Shown piece by piece: positions 23,705 to 61,755 of a stretch of 64,000 nucleotides of DNA. The stretch covers positions 3,226,001 to 3,290,000 of the forward strand of contig NZ_CP082944.1 in NCBI RefSeq assembly GCF_019933155.2, written 5' to 3'. Positions within the stretch are counted from its first letter, which is position 1; each line of letters opens with the position of its first letter. The notes under the pieces were generated by a model. It saw only the letters and a program-made list of their open reading frames with translations, did no database searches and was not told the DNA's origin. Source of the DNA: Metabacillus dongyingensis (lineage in GTDB: Bacteria > Bacillota > Bacilli > Bacillales > Bacillaceae). Position numbers and translations under genes: made by a program.

Positions 23705-24424
23705 CTAATCTGCAAACTTTCTTGATGTTGCTTTTATGATAAGAAAATGAGGATTCGTCATGATATACTCATAGTTCTCTGGGTAATTTTCCTTAAAGCT
23801 TTCTGTGCCTCTTGGTTCAGAAAGTTCATCTATGACAAAAAAACGGCTTGTTTCGGTTACAATTTTCTCCAGCGGTTTTCTGTAAAAGCTGACCTCAAAA
23901 GATGTACCCGCTTTCTTCCAAGTATCATGAAGCAGCACTTCTTCAAAGTAGTTTTCACAATTAAATAGTTTAAAATCCATAAATGGATGATGCGTGGAAA
24001 AGAGCAGCAGCCCTTTTGGTTTCAGGACTCTGCTGAACTCTTTAAAAATAGGAAACCAGTCTTTACAATAATGCAGAGTGAGTGAACTGACAATCATATC
24101 AAAAGAATGAGCTTCAAAAGGAAGCGGCTGGTTTAAATCATGGCAAATAATACGGGCTGCACCTCCCGTTCTTCGTGCTGCTGCCTTCACCATTTCAGGA
24201 CTGATGTCTATTGCTGTTACGGCCGCGCCTTTTTCAAGCAACGTCTTTGTATACCAGCCTGCTGAACAGCCTGCATCGAGTATAGCCAGGCCTTCCAGCT
24301 TATCTGGAAGCATGCTCAGCATCGCAGGGCGTTCGTAATCCGTATTGTACGGACTGTCTTGTTCTACTTGCTGTTCATAAATACGGGCTAATTTATCAAA
24401 TGCATCCTTTGGGGAATGTGTCAT
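23705..24424 (-). CDS. Class I SAM-dependent methyltransferase
   Basis: The 239-residue product starts MTHSPKDAFDKLARIYE at 24424. SAM motif I is ILDAGCSAGWYTKTLL, motif II VTAIDISPEM, and motif IV-V VSSLTLHYCKDWFPIFKEF. It is a UbiE/Coq5-like small-molecule methyltransferase; substrate unknown. Its upstream region is the 52-bp repeat array, so its promoter must lie between the array and the gene or in the array. Confidence 0.8.
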   Translation of the reverse strand: MTHSPKDAFDKLARIYEQQVEQDSPYNTDYERPAMLSMLPDKLEGLAILDAGCSAGWYTKTLLEKGAAVTAIDISPEMVKAAARRTGGAARIICHDLNQPLPFEAHSFDMIVSSLTLHYCKDWFPIFKEFSRVLKPKGLLLFSTHHPFMDFKLFNCENYFEEVLLHDTWKKAGTSFEVSFYRKPLEKIVTETSRFFVIDELSEPRGTESFKENYPENYEYIMTNPHFLIIKATSRKFAD

Positions 24425-24480
24425 TCGTTCACCCATCCTTTTTTTCATAATAAAAAGGTTCGTTGATTACGCTAATTATC

Positions 24481-25345
24481 AATTTGACAAGTTTTGGGTT
24501 CTCATTTAGGTCCTTTGATTCCCCTTTTTCCCGATTAGAGCTGGCTTGAGCACTCATATAGACTCTTTGATTACCCAACTCCTCGATTTCAACTGGTTTG
24601 AGTACTCATACAGATCCTATGATTACCCTTCTCTTCGATCTCAACTGGTTTGAGTACTCATTCAGATCCTTTGATTACCCTTCTCTTCAATTTCAACTGG
24701 TTTGAGTACTCATTCAGATCCTTTGATTACCCTTCTCTTCAATTTCAACTGGTTTGAGTACTCATTCAGATCCTTTGATTACCCTTCTCTTCAATTTCAA
24801 CTGGTTTGAGTACTCATTCAGATCCTTTGATTACCAAACTCCTCGATTTCAACTGATTTGAGTACACATATAGATCCTTTGATTACCCTTCTCTTCGATT
24901 TCAACTGGTTTGAGTACTCATTCAGATCCTTTGATTACCCTTCTCTTCAATTTCAACTGGTTCGAGTACTCATTCAGATCCTTTGATTACTCATCTCTTC
25001 AATTTCAACTGGTTTGAGTACTCATTCAGATCCTATGATTACCCTTCTCTTCGATTTCAACTGAATTGAGCACTCATACAGACCCTTTGATTACCCTTCT
25101 CTTCGATTTCATCTGGTTTGAGTACTCATACAGATCCTATGATTATCCAACTTCTCGATTTAAACTTGTATGAGCACTCATACAGATCCTATAATTACCC
25201 TTTTTCTCATTTTGAGCTGCTTTGGGGACTCATACTGACCCTTCGATTCCCCTATTTCTCAAACTCAGCATTTATTAGGCTTCATACAAACACACATGCT
25301 AACCCTATTCTTCGTTTTGAGCTGTTTAAGTGCTTCATACAGGAA
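24481..25345. repeat. 52-bp tandem repeat array, about 17 units
   Basis: A CTCAT anchor recurs at 24501, 24553, 24605, 24657, 24709, 24761, 24813, (24865), 24917, 24969, 25021, 25073, 25125, 25177, 25229 and, degenerate, 25281 and 25334. Fifteen intervals in a row are exactly 52 bases. Central units are almost identical; both edges are diverged. Each good unit has the 10-base palindrome TGAGTACTCA (eight exact copies; three read TGAGCACTCA) followed by TCCTTTGATTACCC and a TTCAACTGG segment. The unit length is not a multiple of 3 and no credible gene lies inside. It separates ypgR from the methyltransferase gene. Confidence 0.95.
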
Positions 25346-25401
25346 AGACCCCAAGTATTCATCTTCCCAGAAATATCAGCGGCCTGATTTATCGCTCGCA
25401 A

Positions 25402-25435
25402 AAAGACTAAATCACATTAAGATGATTTAGTCTTT
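25402..25435 (-). terminator. Terminator of ypgR
   Basis: Stem AAAGACTAAATCA/TGATTTAGTCTTT with an 8-base loop just after the ypgR stop. Confidence 0.85.
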
Positions 25436-25440
25436 ACTCA

Positions 25441-26568
25441 TTACTTTCTGCTTTCAGTCATTTGCTTCCAGACCGAGCCTTTTGCTTCTTCTCCGCCTTC
25501 AATTCGCTCAATTGCCATTTTGATTTGAAGGCTTACTTCAAACTCAGGGTCATTTTCAGCTTGTTTTAAGGCTTTCAGAGCACTTTCATCGCCCACCTCA
25601 TATAAAAACATGGCCGCTCTCCATCTGACTAGCTTATTTTTATCTTTTAAGGCAAGCATCATTTCCTGCATGGCACTTGGGTCACCAATGTCTGAGAGAC
25701 AATCTCCCGCTGTTCTGCGGACCGTTACAGATTTATCTTTCAATGCTTTGTAAAGATAAGGAAGAACAGCAGGTTCTTCAATCATTCCTAAATAGACAGC
25801 AGCAAGTCTGCGTATGGACGCTTTCTCGTCATTCAGCGCTTTGTCTAAAACGGGCAAATCACTTTCTTTCGGGTTCATCTGCTCAAGATGCGCATAACGG
25901 ACAGTCCAATCGGGTTCATTAAGCATTTCCGAGGTAACTTCATACGATTTGCGGGCAGGAACCGGTTCTGATTTATCTTTTTGCAGCAGTGCTTCTGTCA
26001 TTTTTGTTAACCGTTCATCGCTGTACGCTGCCTGAAGCTCTTCAACAACATCCTTGCCGATTTCATCAAAATCTCCGTATCTGACGCCTTGTTCCTTCCA
26101 CTTTCTTTCCAGAACGACGTTATCTGCATTTTGCTGTGCCTGCAGGACGGCTTTTTGGAAGCGTTCCGGGAGTCCAAATCTTTTTTCAGTCTCCCCGTCC
26201 GAAAGCTTCACCTGCATCGGGATTCCGCTGAATATTTGAACGTGCACATTCACTTCTCCAAAATGTTCGTTGATCTGAGGTTTGTTTTCTGCTCCCTCTT
26301 CAACACTTTCTCCGAAGGCAGCACGGACTTTAGGAAGAATTTCCTTCCAGTCAAATTTCGCATTGCGTTCTACAGCAAGGAAATCAGCCACATGATAAAC
26401 GCCTTTTACGCCTTCAACTTTCAGGATTTCCTGAATAACCTTCGGCGCCCCTTCTGCCGTTTCTTTTTTATAATTATTGCTTTTTCCGCCTGGAAGCTCT
26501 TCGTCTAATATAACTTTCATCGTATTTGGACTTGGAGTCGGTTCAATCGATTTGATATTCAAAGCCAT
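25441..26568 (-). CDS. ypgR: YpgR, NifU-N/HEAT-repeat protein (conserved virulence factor C-like)
   Basis: The 375-residue product opens with a scaffold-protein NifU N-terminal-like domain (residues 1-90: IKSIEPTPSPNTMKVIL, VEGVKGVYHV). A middle region follows, then a set of HEAT repeats from about 225 (DWTVRYAHLEQM, ASIRRLAAVYLGMI, VTVRRTAGDCLSDIGD, KLVRWRAAMFLYEVGD). The S. aureus relative is CvfC. Function is unresolved; HEAT repeats suggest protein scaffolding. Confidence 0.88.
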   Translation of the reverse strand: MALNIKSIEPTPSPNTMKVILDEELPGGKSNNYKKETAEGAPKVIQEILKVEGVKGVYHVADFLAVERNAKFDWKEILPKVRAAFGESVEEGAENKPQINEHFGEVNVHVQIFSGIPMQVKLSDGETEKRFGLPERFQKAVLQAQQNADNVVLERKWKEQGVRYGDFDEIGKDVVEELQAAYSDERLTKMTEALLQKDKSEPVPARKSYEVTSEMLNEPDWTVRYAHLEQMNPKESDLPVLDKALNDEKASIRRLAAVYLGMIEEPAVLPYLYKALKDKSVTVRRTAGDCLSDIGDPSAMQEMMLALKDKNKLVRWRAAMFLYEVGDESALKALKQAENDPEFEVSLQIKMAIERIEGGEEAKGSVWKQMTESRK

Positions 26569-41124: not shown

Positions 41125-41520
41125 ATGATCGAAGTATATGTAGACGGTGCTAGTGCAGGAGATCCTGGGCCTTCAGGAGCCGGCATTTTCATTAAAGGGC
41201 ACGGCAAAGGGGAAAAGTTCTCAGTCCCTCTTGGCATCATGACGAATCATGAAGCCGAGTATCATGCCCTAATAAAAAGCCTGGAAATTTGTCTTGAGAA
41301 AGGATTTTCGATTATTTCAGTCAGAACGGATTCACAGCTTGTAGAACGTGCTGTTGAAAAGGAATATGTGAAAAATCCAGCTTTCGTTCCGCTGCTTGAG
41401 AAGGTTCTAGGCTTAAAAAATCAATTTGAGCTGTTTTTTATTAAATGGATTCCGAGCAAACAAAACAGTGTAGCCGATCAGCTGTCACGAGATGCCATTC
41501 GGCTGAATGGAGATACATAA
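41125..41520 (+). CDS. ypdQ: YpdQ, RNase HI-like protein
   Basis: The 131-residue product has an RNase HI fold: VYVDGASAGDPGPSGAG (first Asp), NHEAEYHAL (Glu), VRTDSQLVERA (Asp) and SVADQLSRDA (last Asp). All four acidic positions are present. It may cleave RNA in hybrids. The ATG follows AAGGAG. Its last 16 codons lie in a 74-base tandem duplication that also includes the start of the next gene. Confidence 0.85.
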   Translation: MIEVYVDGASAGDPGPSGAGIFIKGHGKGEKFSVPLGIMTNHEAEYHALIKSLEICLEKGFSIISVRTDSQLVERAVEKEYVKNPAFVPLLEKVLGLKNQFELFFIKWIPSKQNSVADQLSRDAIRLNGDT

Positions 41521-41620
41521 TGATGAAGCTGAAAAAATCTTCAGTTGCCGATCAGCTGTCACGAGATGCCATTCGGCTGAATGGAGATACATAATGATGA
41601 AGCTGAAAAAATCTTCAGTT
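41473..41620 (+). repeat. Exact 74-bp tandem duplication at the ypdQ-EamA junction
   Basis: Bases 41473-41546 and 41547-41620 are identical. Each copy has the end of ypdQ, the overlapping TAATG, and the start of the transporter gene. The hexamer GCCGAT starts both copies and follows the second (41621-41626), so slippage between two GCCGAT hexamers 74 bases apart explains the event. Confidence 0.95.
41520..41594 (+). other. 24-residue mini-ORF created by the duplication
   Basis: The first-copy transporter ATG (41520) overlaps the ypdQ stop (TAATG) and reads MMKLKKSSVADQ, then the ypdQ tail LSRDAIRLNGDT, ending in TAA at 41592-41594, which overlaps the real transporter ATG. It has the original ribosome site (GGAG), so it is probably translated and relays coupling. 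Confidence 0.6.
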
Positions 41621-42499
41621 GCCGATCTCAGTCTCTTGTTAGTAGCTTTTATATGGGGATCTACGTTTGTGATTGTCCAAAAAGCCATTCACTTTATGCC
41701 GCCGCACTTTTTTAATGGCATTCGTTTTTTTGCTGCAGCCGTTATTCTGACTATGATTAGTATAAGAGTAACCCGCTTTCGACTTTCAAAAGACACATTG
41801 CTTGCCGGAATGTCGCTTGGTGTCTTTTTGTTTTTAGGATACGCCTTTCAGACTGTCGGCTTGTTGTATACAACCTCTTCAAAAACTGGATTTATTACTG
41901 GTTTAAGTGTGATGATCGTTCCTCTATTGTCCATCTGGCTTCTTAGGGAACGCGCCAGAAAAACAGTTTATTTTGCAGCTGGACTTGGAACAGCAGGCTT
42001 GTATCTTTTAACCCTGAGTGATTTCTCATCACTAAATATTGGAGATTTGCTTGTTCTCTTTTGCGCCGCTGCGTTTGCTTTGCATATTATCTTTACAGGG
42101 AGGTTTTCCGGCAGTCATGATGCTTGGATGCTGACGATCGTTCAGCTTTCAACGGTTTCTATCCTGAGCTTTCTTGCTTCCGGGGTATTTGAAGCTGCAA
42201 ATGTGAAAGAGAATTTCGGCAGCATGTTTACATTTGAAGTTCTGTTTGCCCTTATCATTACCGCCTTATTTGCAACTGCATTCGCCTTTTTCGTTCAAAC
42301 AAAGCTTCAGCAGTACACAACAGCATCAAGAGTTGCTCTCATTTATGCCTCAGAGCCAGTGTTCGCTGCTTTAACCGCTTTTATTTTCATTGGAGAGCGA
42401 ATGACAGTATACGGCATGATCGGCTGTCTGCTTATATTGGCAGCTATGCTTACAGCTGAATGGAAGCAAAACAGCACGGAAGAATCTCTTTCCATATAA
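41594..42499 (+). CDS. EamA/DMT-family transporter
   Basis: The ATG at 41594 (or 41597) follows TGGAG in the second duplicate copy. The 301-residue product has ten transmembrane segments in two EamA repeats: SLLLVAFIWGSTFVIVQKA at the start and TASRVALIYASEPVFAALTAF in the second. Such proteins export or import metabolites; the substrate is unknown. Its start overlaps the mini-ORF stop. An earlier in-frame ATG (41507) is a by-product of the duplication. Confidence 0.85.
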   Translation: MMKLKKSSVADLSLLLVAFIWGSTFVIVQKAIHFMPPHFFNGIRFFAAAVILTMISIRVTRFRLSKDTLLAGMSLGVFLFLGYAFQTVGLLYTTSSKTGFITGLSVMIVPLLSIWLLRERARKTVYFAAGLGTAGLYLLTLSDFSSLNIGDLLVLFCAAAFALHIIFTGRFSGSHDAWMLTIVQLSTVSILSFLASGVFEAANVKENFGSMFTFEVLFALIITALFATAFAFFVQTKLQQYTTASRVALIYASEPVFAALTAFIFIGERMTVYGMIGCLLILAAMLTAEWKQNSTEESLSI

Positions 42500-61600: not shown

Positions 61601-61663
61601 ATATCCGGAAAAAAGAAAAGAAGTTCCCTATAAGGACCTTTTTCGAATAGAAACAACACTGCT

Positions 61664-61734
61664 CACTCATAGTCAGATGATTTACGGTCATCCGGTAGAA
61701 ACTTGCAGGCCATATCCCTGCGATTATATGAGTG
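61664..61734 (-). ncRNA. Purine (guanine) riboswitch aptamer
   Basis: Minus strand: P1 CACTCAT/ATGAGTG, core TATAATCGCAGGGATATGG, loop 2, TTTCTACCGG, loop 3 and TGACTATG. The specifier position is C (GACTATG), giving guanine/hypoxanthine sensing. Near-identical to B. subtilis xpt. Binding of ligand stabilises P1 and so the downstream terminator. Confidence 0.95.
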
Positions 61735-61755
61735 CTCGTTTATTTGATTAGTTGC

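Follow-up and report, generated by a model that had tools for sequence, protein, structure and literature searches.

A dispersed family of phased 52-bp tandem arrays in Metabacillus dongyingensis that may be read by a trans-acting protein

What kind of element is a row of 52-bp units that keeps its phase between two genes of a bacterial chromosome, with a perfect palindrome in one unit after another? Tandem repeats in bacteria are usually classed as neutral minisatellites or phase-variation loci. The row considered here lies in a 64,000-nucleotide stretch of the Metabacillus dongyingensis genome (GCF_019933155.2, contig NZ_CP082944.1, positions 3,226,001 to 3,290,000), which we call the window and whose numbering we use below; an earlier note on its letters had likened the row to iterons, partition sites or arrays bound by a dimeric protein.

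The window array and its relatives in the same genome

Tandem Repeats Finder returned positions 24493-25202 as a single array with a period of 52 bp, 13.7 copies, 0% indels and a score of 993. Repeat finding together with register reading delimits a core of 15 units in exact phase (24493..25272, no strand), that is, 14 exact 52-bp intervals, whose units match the consensus at 34 to 51 of 52 positions. On its left stands a decayed unit, still in phase (24441..24492, no strand), in which the second of the two boxes described below is discernible as GTTGATTACG and which shares its first 8 bases with the start of a methyltransferase ORF; on its right the array ends in decay (25273..25345, no strand), with one in-phase unit followed by a remnant shifted by +1. 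With the decayed units at 24441 and 25273 added, the phase holds over 16 intervals, and only the last remnant, at 25325, is out of phase, by one base. The strict phase over at least 15 intervals described in the earlier note is borne out by this reading, as is its count of eight perfect palindromes: TGAGTACTCA occurs 8 times exactly in the 64-kb window and every copy is inside the array (starts at 24599, 24651, 24703, 24755, 24807, 24911, 25015 and 25119). Reading unit by unit also agrees with its description of middle units that are near identical and edge units that have decayed.

Absent from the earlier note was a second box in each unit, of the TTTGATTACCC type, inverted and 21 bp downstream of the first. 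Each 52-bp unit carries two boxes of about 14 bp. Box A resembles TTTGAGTACTCA (GxGxAxTCA), and box B, which is inverted (TGAxTxCxC), follows at a distance of 21 bp; the conserved letters are G.G.A.TCA in box A and the reverse complement of these, TGA.T.C.C, in box B. A typical unit, located by motif scan, runs from box A, TTTGAGTACTCATT, which includes the palindrome TGAGTACTCA (24649..24662, plus strand), through a variable spacer of 7 bp (24663..24669, no strand) to box B, TTTGATTACCCTTC, inverted relative to box A and 21 bp from it (24670..24683, minus strand), and then through a 17-bp linker to the following unit (24684..24700, no strand), which puts box B and the following box A at a distance of 31 bp. 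Because boxes A and B are reverse complements of each other, the window's perfect palindrome amounts to a special case of an inverted pair that in most genomes reads GxGxAxTCA-N11-TGAxTxCxC and is repeated every 52 bp. The perfect palindrome stressed in the earlier note is a variant belonging to this genome, and it is the inverted box pair that is conserved from genome to genome.

The window array lies between co-directional genes. To its left is a SAM methyltransferase-like gene (Pfam Methyltransf_11; 23705..24448, minus strand) with its start towards the array, and to its right, with its end towards the array, a gene for a protein with Nfu_N, Virulence_fact and HEAT-repeat matches in the domain scan (25441..26568, minus strand), which is present in 7/7 genomes of the genus. 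Between this HEAT gene and the array we read a terminator-like inverted repeat, AAAGACTAAATC...GATTTAGTCTTT (25401..25435, no strand), and each of the other six genomes of the genus has a similar one 3' of the HEAT gene. Elsewhere in the window, a perfect 74-bp tandem duplication (41473-41627) is found where ORFs 41125-41520 and 41507-42499 overlap, and Rfam identifies a purine riboswitch aptamer on the minus strand at 61650-61751.

Is this array alone? The earlier note had proposed a genome-wide search for the palindrome at 52-bp spacing, and such a search uncovered other arrays. In the 5.42-Mb genome (G000), TGAGTACTCA has 152 copies against 3 for a reversed-pattern control, and two copies lie 51-53 bp apart 78 times against 0. 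Fourteen of 15 stretches fetched around TGAGTACTCA matches carry arrays, 16 in all and 17 with that of the window, and all of these repeat at about 52 bp; in the remaining stretch (L069) one palindrome stands alone within an open reading frame. Forty 20-kb stretches sampled at near-even spacing (760 kb from contig C1 and 40 kb from contig C2; omitted were the grid points at 5.014 Mb and at 3.250 Mb, the latter lying in the window and array-bearing) contained 6 loci with 52-bp arrays, all of them on C1, from which we estimate about 40 arrays in the chromosome. The 40 kb taken from C2, a contig of 362 kb, contained no such array. In one C2 stretch a DUF3231 gene of about 1 kb is 80-90% identical to sequences in 20 plasmid records from Priestia, Cytobacillus and other Bacillaceae, whereas a second C2 stretch gave no match. 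Exact inverted pairs in this 800-kb sample were inside arrays in 25 of 25 cases.

Other tandem rows of at least 100 bp in the sample have periods of 18/45/180, 225 and 249 bp, alongside short rows of 42/21 bp and of 50 bp. Repeats of 21 bp, about two helical turns, occur at two loci (L139:2364-2764, CGGAAAAAAGTGTGGAAGTCT; L144:6285-6522, CGGAATTAAGTTGAAAAGTCT), where open frames traverse them, and C2 carries a 481-bp tandem repeat with 4.0 copies and 97% matches (L170:14980-16893).

Spacing, conservation and pairing of the boxes

A motif scan of the 17 arrays of this genome showed that the boxes alternate at 21 and 31 bp. The 576 intervals between neighbouring boxes comprised 258 of 21 bp, 229 of 31 bp, 30 of 32 bp, 7 of 30 bp and 5 of 20 bp, together with 39 of 52 bp, in which one box fell below threshold, and 8 other values found once each. 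The 21-bp spacing is less variable than the 31-bp spacing (5/263 against 37/266 deviating; Fisher p=1.6e-7, in a count where units of the same array are not independent). Distances of 21, 31 and 52 bp correspond to about 2, 3 and 5 helical turns, and in L063 intervals of 20 bp stand in place of 31, a change of about one turn. Because the boxes of a pair are two turns apart and successive pairs three turns apart, all boxes of an array should face one side of the DNA.

Within arrays, diversity is 0.077 in the box cores and 0.221 outside the boxes, and it is lower in the cores in 16/16 arrays (p=3e-5; L073b, with 2 units, stood outside this test). Between arrays the corresponding values are 0.217 and 0.682 out of a possible 0.75, as calculated from 17 array consensus units, across which eight box positions are invariant while the linkers are nearly unrelated; box conservation is somewhat inflated here, the boxes having been found via a motif threshold, and for one box of the two in L062, as in L070, the register was set from position alone. 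We also examined 64 repeat rows from 13 genomes with no box letters assumed, in which adjacent rows of one array are counted apart and to which L114 (G241) and L116 (G251) contributed no row. The period was 52 in 54 rows, 51 in 7 and 53 in 3; these loci had been chosen with a 52-bp model, so that the period is preselected there, and the near-even sample of the M. dongyingensis genome is free of such selection. A letter-free 8-mer inverted-repeat score in these rows peaks 19 bp apart, with a mean of 6.61 against 4.88 for shuffled rows, and reaches at least 7 of 8 in 53% of rows.

A pair of inverted boxes could also act as a stem-loop, which would make the array a row of hairpins in a structured RNA (regulatory, terminator or antitoxin-like) or in single-stranded DNA. 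The arms are indeed complementary, and in several other genomes the complementarity is perfect (GGGAATCA/TGATTCCC in G159, AGTAATCA/TGATTACT in G233), and slid stems pair less (at most 41.6% and 43.2%), as follows from the boxes being inverted copies. Yet in 61 aligned 87-bp stretches of the M. dongyingensis genome box pairing is below that of shuffles (72.4 against 76.4% at 21 bp, 71.5 against 75.9% at 31 bp), RNAalifold returns a consensus of 0 pairs for the 61-row alignment, and neighbouring boxes in 16 arrays show no more complementarity than boxes partnered at random (Stouffer z -1.2 and -0.2). Moreover, no Rfam family reaches its gathering score over the array, the riboswitch being the only such match in the window, and a row of hairpins requires neither a 52-bp phase nor fixed TCA/TGA letters. 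We consider a hairpin function improbable.

The REP/BIME elements of enterobacteria and pseudomonads are dispersed, intergenic, paired inverted palindromic motifs, some of them in tandem and often at gene ends. The arrays described here differ from them in their fixed 52-bp helical phase, their 21/31 spacing and their locus-specific linkers, and a REP/BIME-type stem-loop with compensatory change was not seen in the pairing tests on this genome. A search of 14 genomes for the Y1 transposase domain (Y1_Tnp, PF01797) gave matches in 8, namely the array-bearing G002, G108, G159, G241, G247, G251 and G276 and the array-less G003, and 0 matches in G000, G001, G004, G005, G006 and G233. A RAYT/REP system was rejected on the ground that the four genomes with most array matches (G000, G001, G005, G006) are without this domain.

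Distribution, orthologous loci and genome-specific boxes

To follow the family into relatives, we searched with a four-box model based on sequence only, scoring up to 150 candidates in each genome. At E<=0.01, arrays are found in 5/7 genomes of the genus including M. dongyingensis, with at least 190 matches in G000, at least 183 in G005, at least 154 in G001, at least 146 in G006 and 13 in G002; G003 and G004 gave no match at this threshold. That two of the seven genomes are without a match and one has 13 suggests that the function of the arrays is dispensable. Order-wide, under stricter filters, 12/299 genomes match at E<=1e-4 (8/116 genera), our own and G001 included, and one of the twelve, G045, matches barely above one unit.

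Narrower patterns give a narrower spread. The inverted pair pattern, which overlooks some dialects (that of G159, for instance), occurs 259 times in the M. dongyingensis genome (control 0), 55 times in G001, 54 in G006, 22 in G233, 5 in G241 and 4 in each of G283, G259 and G407, and 0-2 times in the remainder of 397 genomes of the order, where the control also gives 0-2. Two of these, species other than M. dongyingensis, show clusters of four pairs of the GTGAATTCA-N11-TGATTTCGC type at irregular spacing (G407:C1:440109-440671 and G259:C1:4048965-4049572). A strict array pattern, which misses other dialects, matched 2 of 398 genomes of the phylum, our own and G001, both of this genus, in a sample with few genomes of the order. 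Exact palindrome pairs were found in 2/60 relatives (our own and G005), and TTTGAGTACTCAAA, with 57 copies in the M. dongyingensis genome, was found in that genome only among 80 of the family.

Orthologous loci reveal how single arrays change. At the HEAT locus there are arrays in the same place, with 14.9 copies in G005, 5.8 in G001 and 13.7 in the window, about two decayed units in G006 as judged by eye, and no array in G002, G003 or G004. The DNA-alkylation-repair locus has arrays in G000, G005 and G006, a weak one in G001 (2.1 copies) and none in G002, G003 or G004. Overall, orthologous arrays resemble each other in their linkers more than other pairs do (Mann-Whitney p=0.001, the pairs being non-independent); taken singly, 4/9 orthologous pairs reach p<0.05 in linker similarity and 5/9 are not significant. 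These linker comparisons, like the dialect tests below, were limited to arrays with 9 or more of the 12 core positions, which excluded L107 and L109 of G001; L174, which has other arms, and L097 were excluded from the copy-number, linker and dialect comparisons alike.

The boxes themselves come in genome-specific variants, or dialects. In G000 the core is mostly preceded by GAG or GGG, and the commonest core is TACTCA (307), followed by GAATCA (159); G001 has mostly GTG+GAATCA, G233 GAG with mostly TAATCA, and G159 mostly TGG or AGG+GAATCA. Across 41 arrays of four congeners, non-orthologous arrays are more similar in their boxes within genomes (0.777) than between them (0.713), a difference that 0/2000 permutations reached when L121 of G247, same-locus pairs and pairs with a linker score of 12 or more were also excluded. 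The linkers of the same 41 arrays show no within-genome excess (p=0.86). Because box letters are genome-specific while linkers are not, the boxes appear to be read by a trans-acting factor; a reader encoded by the genome predicts such a pattern, in which the box would be set by the genome and not by the locus.

These data bear on the earlier note's suggestion that the sites are constrained and helically phased rather than a neutral minisatellite, and support it: 17 arrays share the same spacing, box positions are conserved and box dialects are specific to genomes. A minisatellite kept uniform by unequal crossing over only would account for the near-identical centre, the decayed edges and the copy-number change between species, but not for box positions that are near invariant where linkers are nearly random, for boxes specific to genomes, or for one spacing rule across 13 genomes; we regard it as very improbable. 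The earlier note had held that free variation in copy number, with no conserved palindrome, no other arrays and no bound protein, would point to a neutral minisatellite. Copy number does vary between species, but the boxes and their phase are retained and the window array is not the only one.

In some arrays the geometry is the same and the arms are different. One in the M. dongyingensis genome (L168/L174) reads TGCTTCA-N11-TGGAGCA, and in two other genomes rows of 51 bp (G159, L100:1726-1933, arms GGGCACTATT/AATAGTGACC) and 52 bp (G251, L101:1596-1714, arms TGTCCGCA/TGCGGCCA) adjoin arrays of the usual type. One protein with one specificity cannot explain all the arrays, since some combine the same geometry with other arms. 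Either several readers of one family exist or geometry outweighs letters, and these arrays are the main weakness of a single-protein model. In L174:4084-4747, at about 4.780 Mb of C1, two unit types partly alternate.

Genomic context, known systems and a possible role

If the boxes are read, is it for the benefit of the genes next door? Among 42 arrays with both neighbours read, convergent genes flank 18, co-directional genes 19 and divergent genes 5, a count that omits L101 (contig end), L114 (under two units) and the fetched loci L076, L086, L087, L090, L097, L098, L100, L107, L115, L116 and L118. The convergent share exceeds the 17.8% of 377 intergenic gaps of at least 60 bp in the M. dongyingensis genome, which alone provides the baseline (p=1e-4), and the divergent share stands against an expected 22% (p=0.07). 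The convergent excess is what a local regulatory or insulating element at gene ends would give, for example a block to read-through between convergent genes. However, the 19 co-directional arrays, that of the window included, and the 5 divergent ones do not fit such a role, and promoter avoidance alone gives the same orientation bias; we see little chance that the arrays are local elements. Autoregulation was rejected as well, no isolated site pair being present in the 800-kb sample of this genome.

The neighbours are diverse, as seen in 37 proteins near the arrays of this genome and in another 10 from four other genomes, where five loci were covered (the domain scan omitted the 97-aa ORFs closest to L067 and L075 and a 70-aa ORF at L063), and these scanned proteins are too varied to point to a neighbouring gene as the partner. 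A GNAT acetyltransferase gene adjoins 4/17 arrays of the M. dongyingensis genome (L068, L071, L072, L074), which may be more than chance would give. Two arrays of different families, L074:2971-3627 and L121:3421-4122 of G247, both lie 3' of a DNA-alkylation-repair gene (PF08713).

C1 starts, as judged by eye, with dnaA, dnaN, recF and gyrB. Among the 24 known loci of this genome, which are not a random sample, the largest gap (1.86-2.87 Mb) is not significant (p=0.14), and distance from the C1 start shows no significant trend (KS p=0.18), with 2/24 loci in the outermost fifth.

Several known systems combine repeated sites with a dedicated protein. Plasmid iterons and partition-site arrays are tandem, helically phased protein sites. 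The arrays differ from these in occupying many chromosomal loci whose scanned neighbours are without a rep or par domain, and the earlier note's proposal of plasmid-style iterons or partition sites is not upheld. A plasmid origin was likewise rejected, there being no plasmid-record match and no replication or partition domain among the 37 proteins near the arrays of this genome. So was a phage-borne element: 0 viral contigs match a strict two-unit pattern representing one dialect, and phage records gave no match. A CRISPR array was rejected because linkers repeat within an array and scanned neighbours are without a cas-type domain, and a type III toxin-antitoxin RNA repeat because no toxN-like domain is present among the scanned neighbours.

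In Bacillus, parS, the Noc sites and the RacA ram sites are short palindromes spread across the chromosome, each kind with one trans-acting protein; they are single sites, and their motifs, as we take it, differ in sequence from the array boxes. The sites of SlmA, too, are to our understanding single and not 52-bp arrays. SlmA is a nucleoid-occlusion factor of TetR-like structure, and its E. coli site, given as GTGAGTACTCAC, is reported in 50 copies in K-12 outside the Ter macrodomain (PMC3116907). The core of this site, TGAGTACTCA, is identical to the palindrome of the M. dongyingensis genome, and both cases would involve tens of chromosomal sites and, for SlmA, one TetR-like protein with a role in the chromosome and division (PMC3116907). 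In contrast, SlmA sites avoid the terminus (PMC3116907) and our arrays are without significant positional bias, the flanks of the array boxes are TTT/AAA-rich in the position weight matrix of the M. dongyingensis genome, and the boxes of other genomes are not palindromic. A protein of the TetR type would fit the palindrome of this genome. Because what look like TetR-type operators elsewhere share the core, the resemblance says more about which protein family to consider than about function; we treat the core match as a lead only for a possible chromosome role, and it fails for the other dialects.

Such operators turned up in a scan of contigs from named genomes, where 6 contigs have two TGAGTACTCA 51-53 bp apart and none is an array. 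Five of the six (L077, L078, L079, L080 and L082) were classed by eye as TetR-type operator pairs. Those in Gottfriedia, Fictibacillus and Bacillus sp. EAC are like the arrays in having TGAGTACTCA twice, 52-53 bp apart, and unlike them in consisting of one locus with two AGTGAGTACTCACT sites immediately ahead of a gene start, with no array. In L079 an ATPase-like open frame follows the double site. The sixth contig, from the Bacteriovoracia, has its pair within an open frame.

The main rival to a reading of the boxes by a host protein is a selfish satellite, whose boxes would be recognised by an amplifying enzyme such as a recombinase or nuclease and which would spread and expand without host function. 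The geometry of the pair, two inverted arms around a 7-bp centre and 21 bp apart, presumably resembles a tyrosine-recombinase core site. Linkers are shared between different loci of one genome (L064, L073 and L075), which indicates that arrays are also copied to new places; copy number at orthologous sites differs strongly between congeners, with some sites empty, and the spread is sporadic, at the 12 of 299 genomes of the order given above. On the other hand, no scanned neighbour has a transposase, integrase or recombinase domain (a single NERD, or nuclease-related, protein is encoded between the two L073 arrays), linkers are for the most part found at one locus only, and the site of an amplifying enzyme needs no strict 31-bp spacing between pairs. 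We judge a selfish origin unlikely, though more plausible than the hairpin or local readings.

The explanation that we favour, at a probability of roughly 0.6, is that the window array belongs to a dispersed satellite family whose boxes are read at about 40 loci by a trans-acting, dyad-symmetric protein. Architecture, phasing, conservation, multiplicity and genome-specific box dialects are features of the family that we observe directly, and from these it is very probable that some protein binds the arrays. The unit would be an inverted box pair two helical turns apart, with successive pairs three turns apart, and a dimeric or tetrameric protein of dyad symmetry would occupy many pairs side by side, building a nucleoprotein row at each of the loci. 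Unequal recombination would make arrays grow and shrink while the protein holds the boxes and the linkers drift. As to what such rows are for, a role at the scale of the chromosome, in its organisation, anchoring, segregation or division control, is tentatively the likeliest single use, and control of neighbouring genes is less likely to be their purpose.

In eukaryotes, centromeric satellites with CENP-B boxes are tandem, carry a conserved protein box in a drifting linker and have species-specific variants. The arrays differ in being bacterial, many and dispersed, with paired boxes; the likeness is one of sequence layout. In the open-access literature, as covered by titles and the openings of abstracts, we found no description of such arrays. 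A box that changes genome by genome, in linkers that do not, is the pattern expected of a protein and a satellite evolving together. It is conceivable, if somewhat doubtful, that some Bacillales-type bacteria have a true chromosomal satellite whose dialects co-evolve with a dedicated binding protein and whose arrays serve as foci for chromosome organisation, segregation or division control. If that is true, the family would be a bacterial counterpart of box-containing centromeric satellites. The arrays offer ready-made baits for finding the binding protein, and make it testable whether bacteria mark or fold their chromosomes with repeated DNA.
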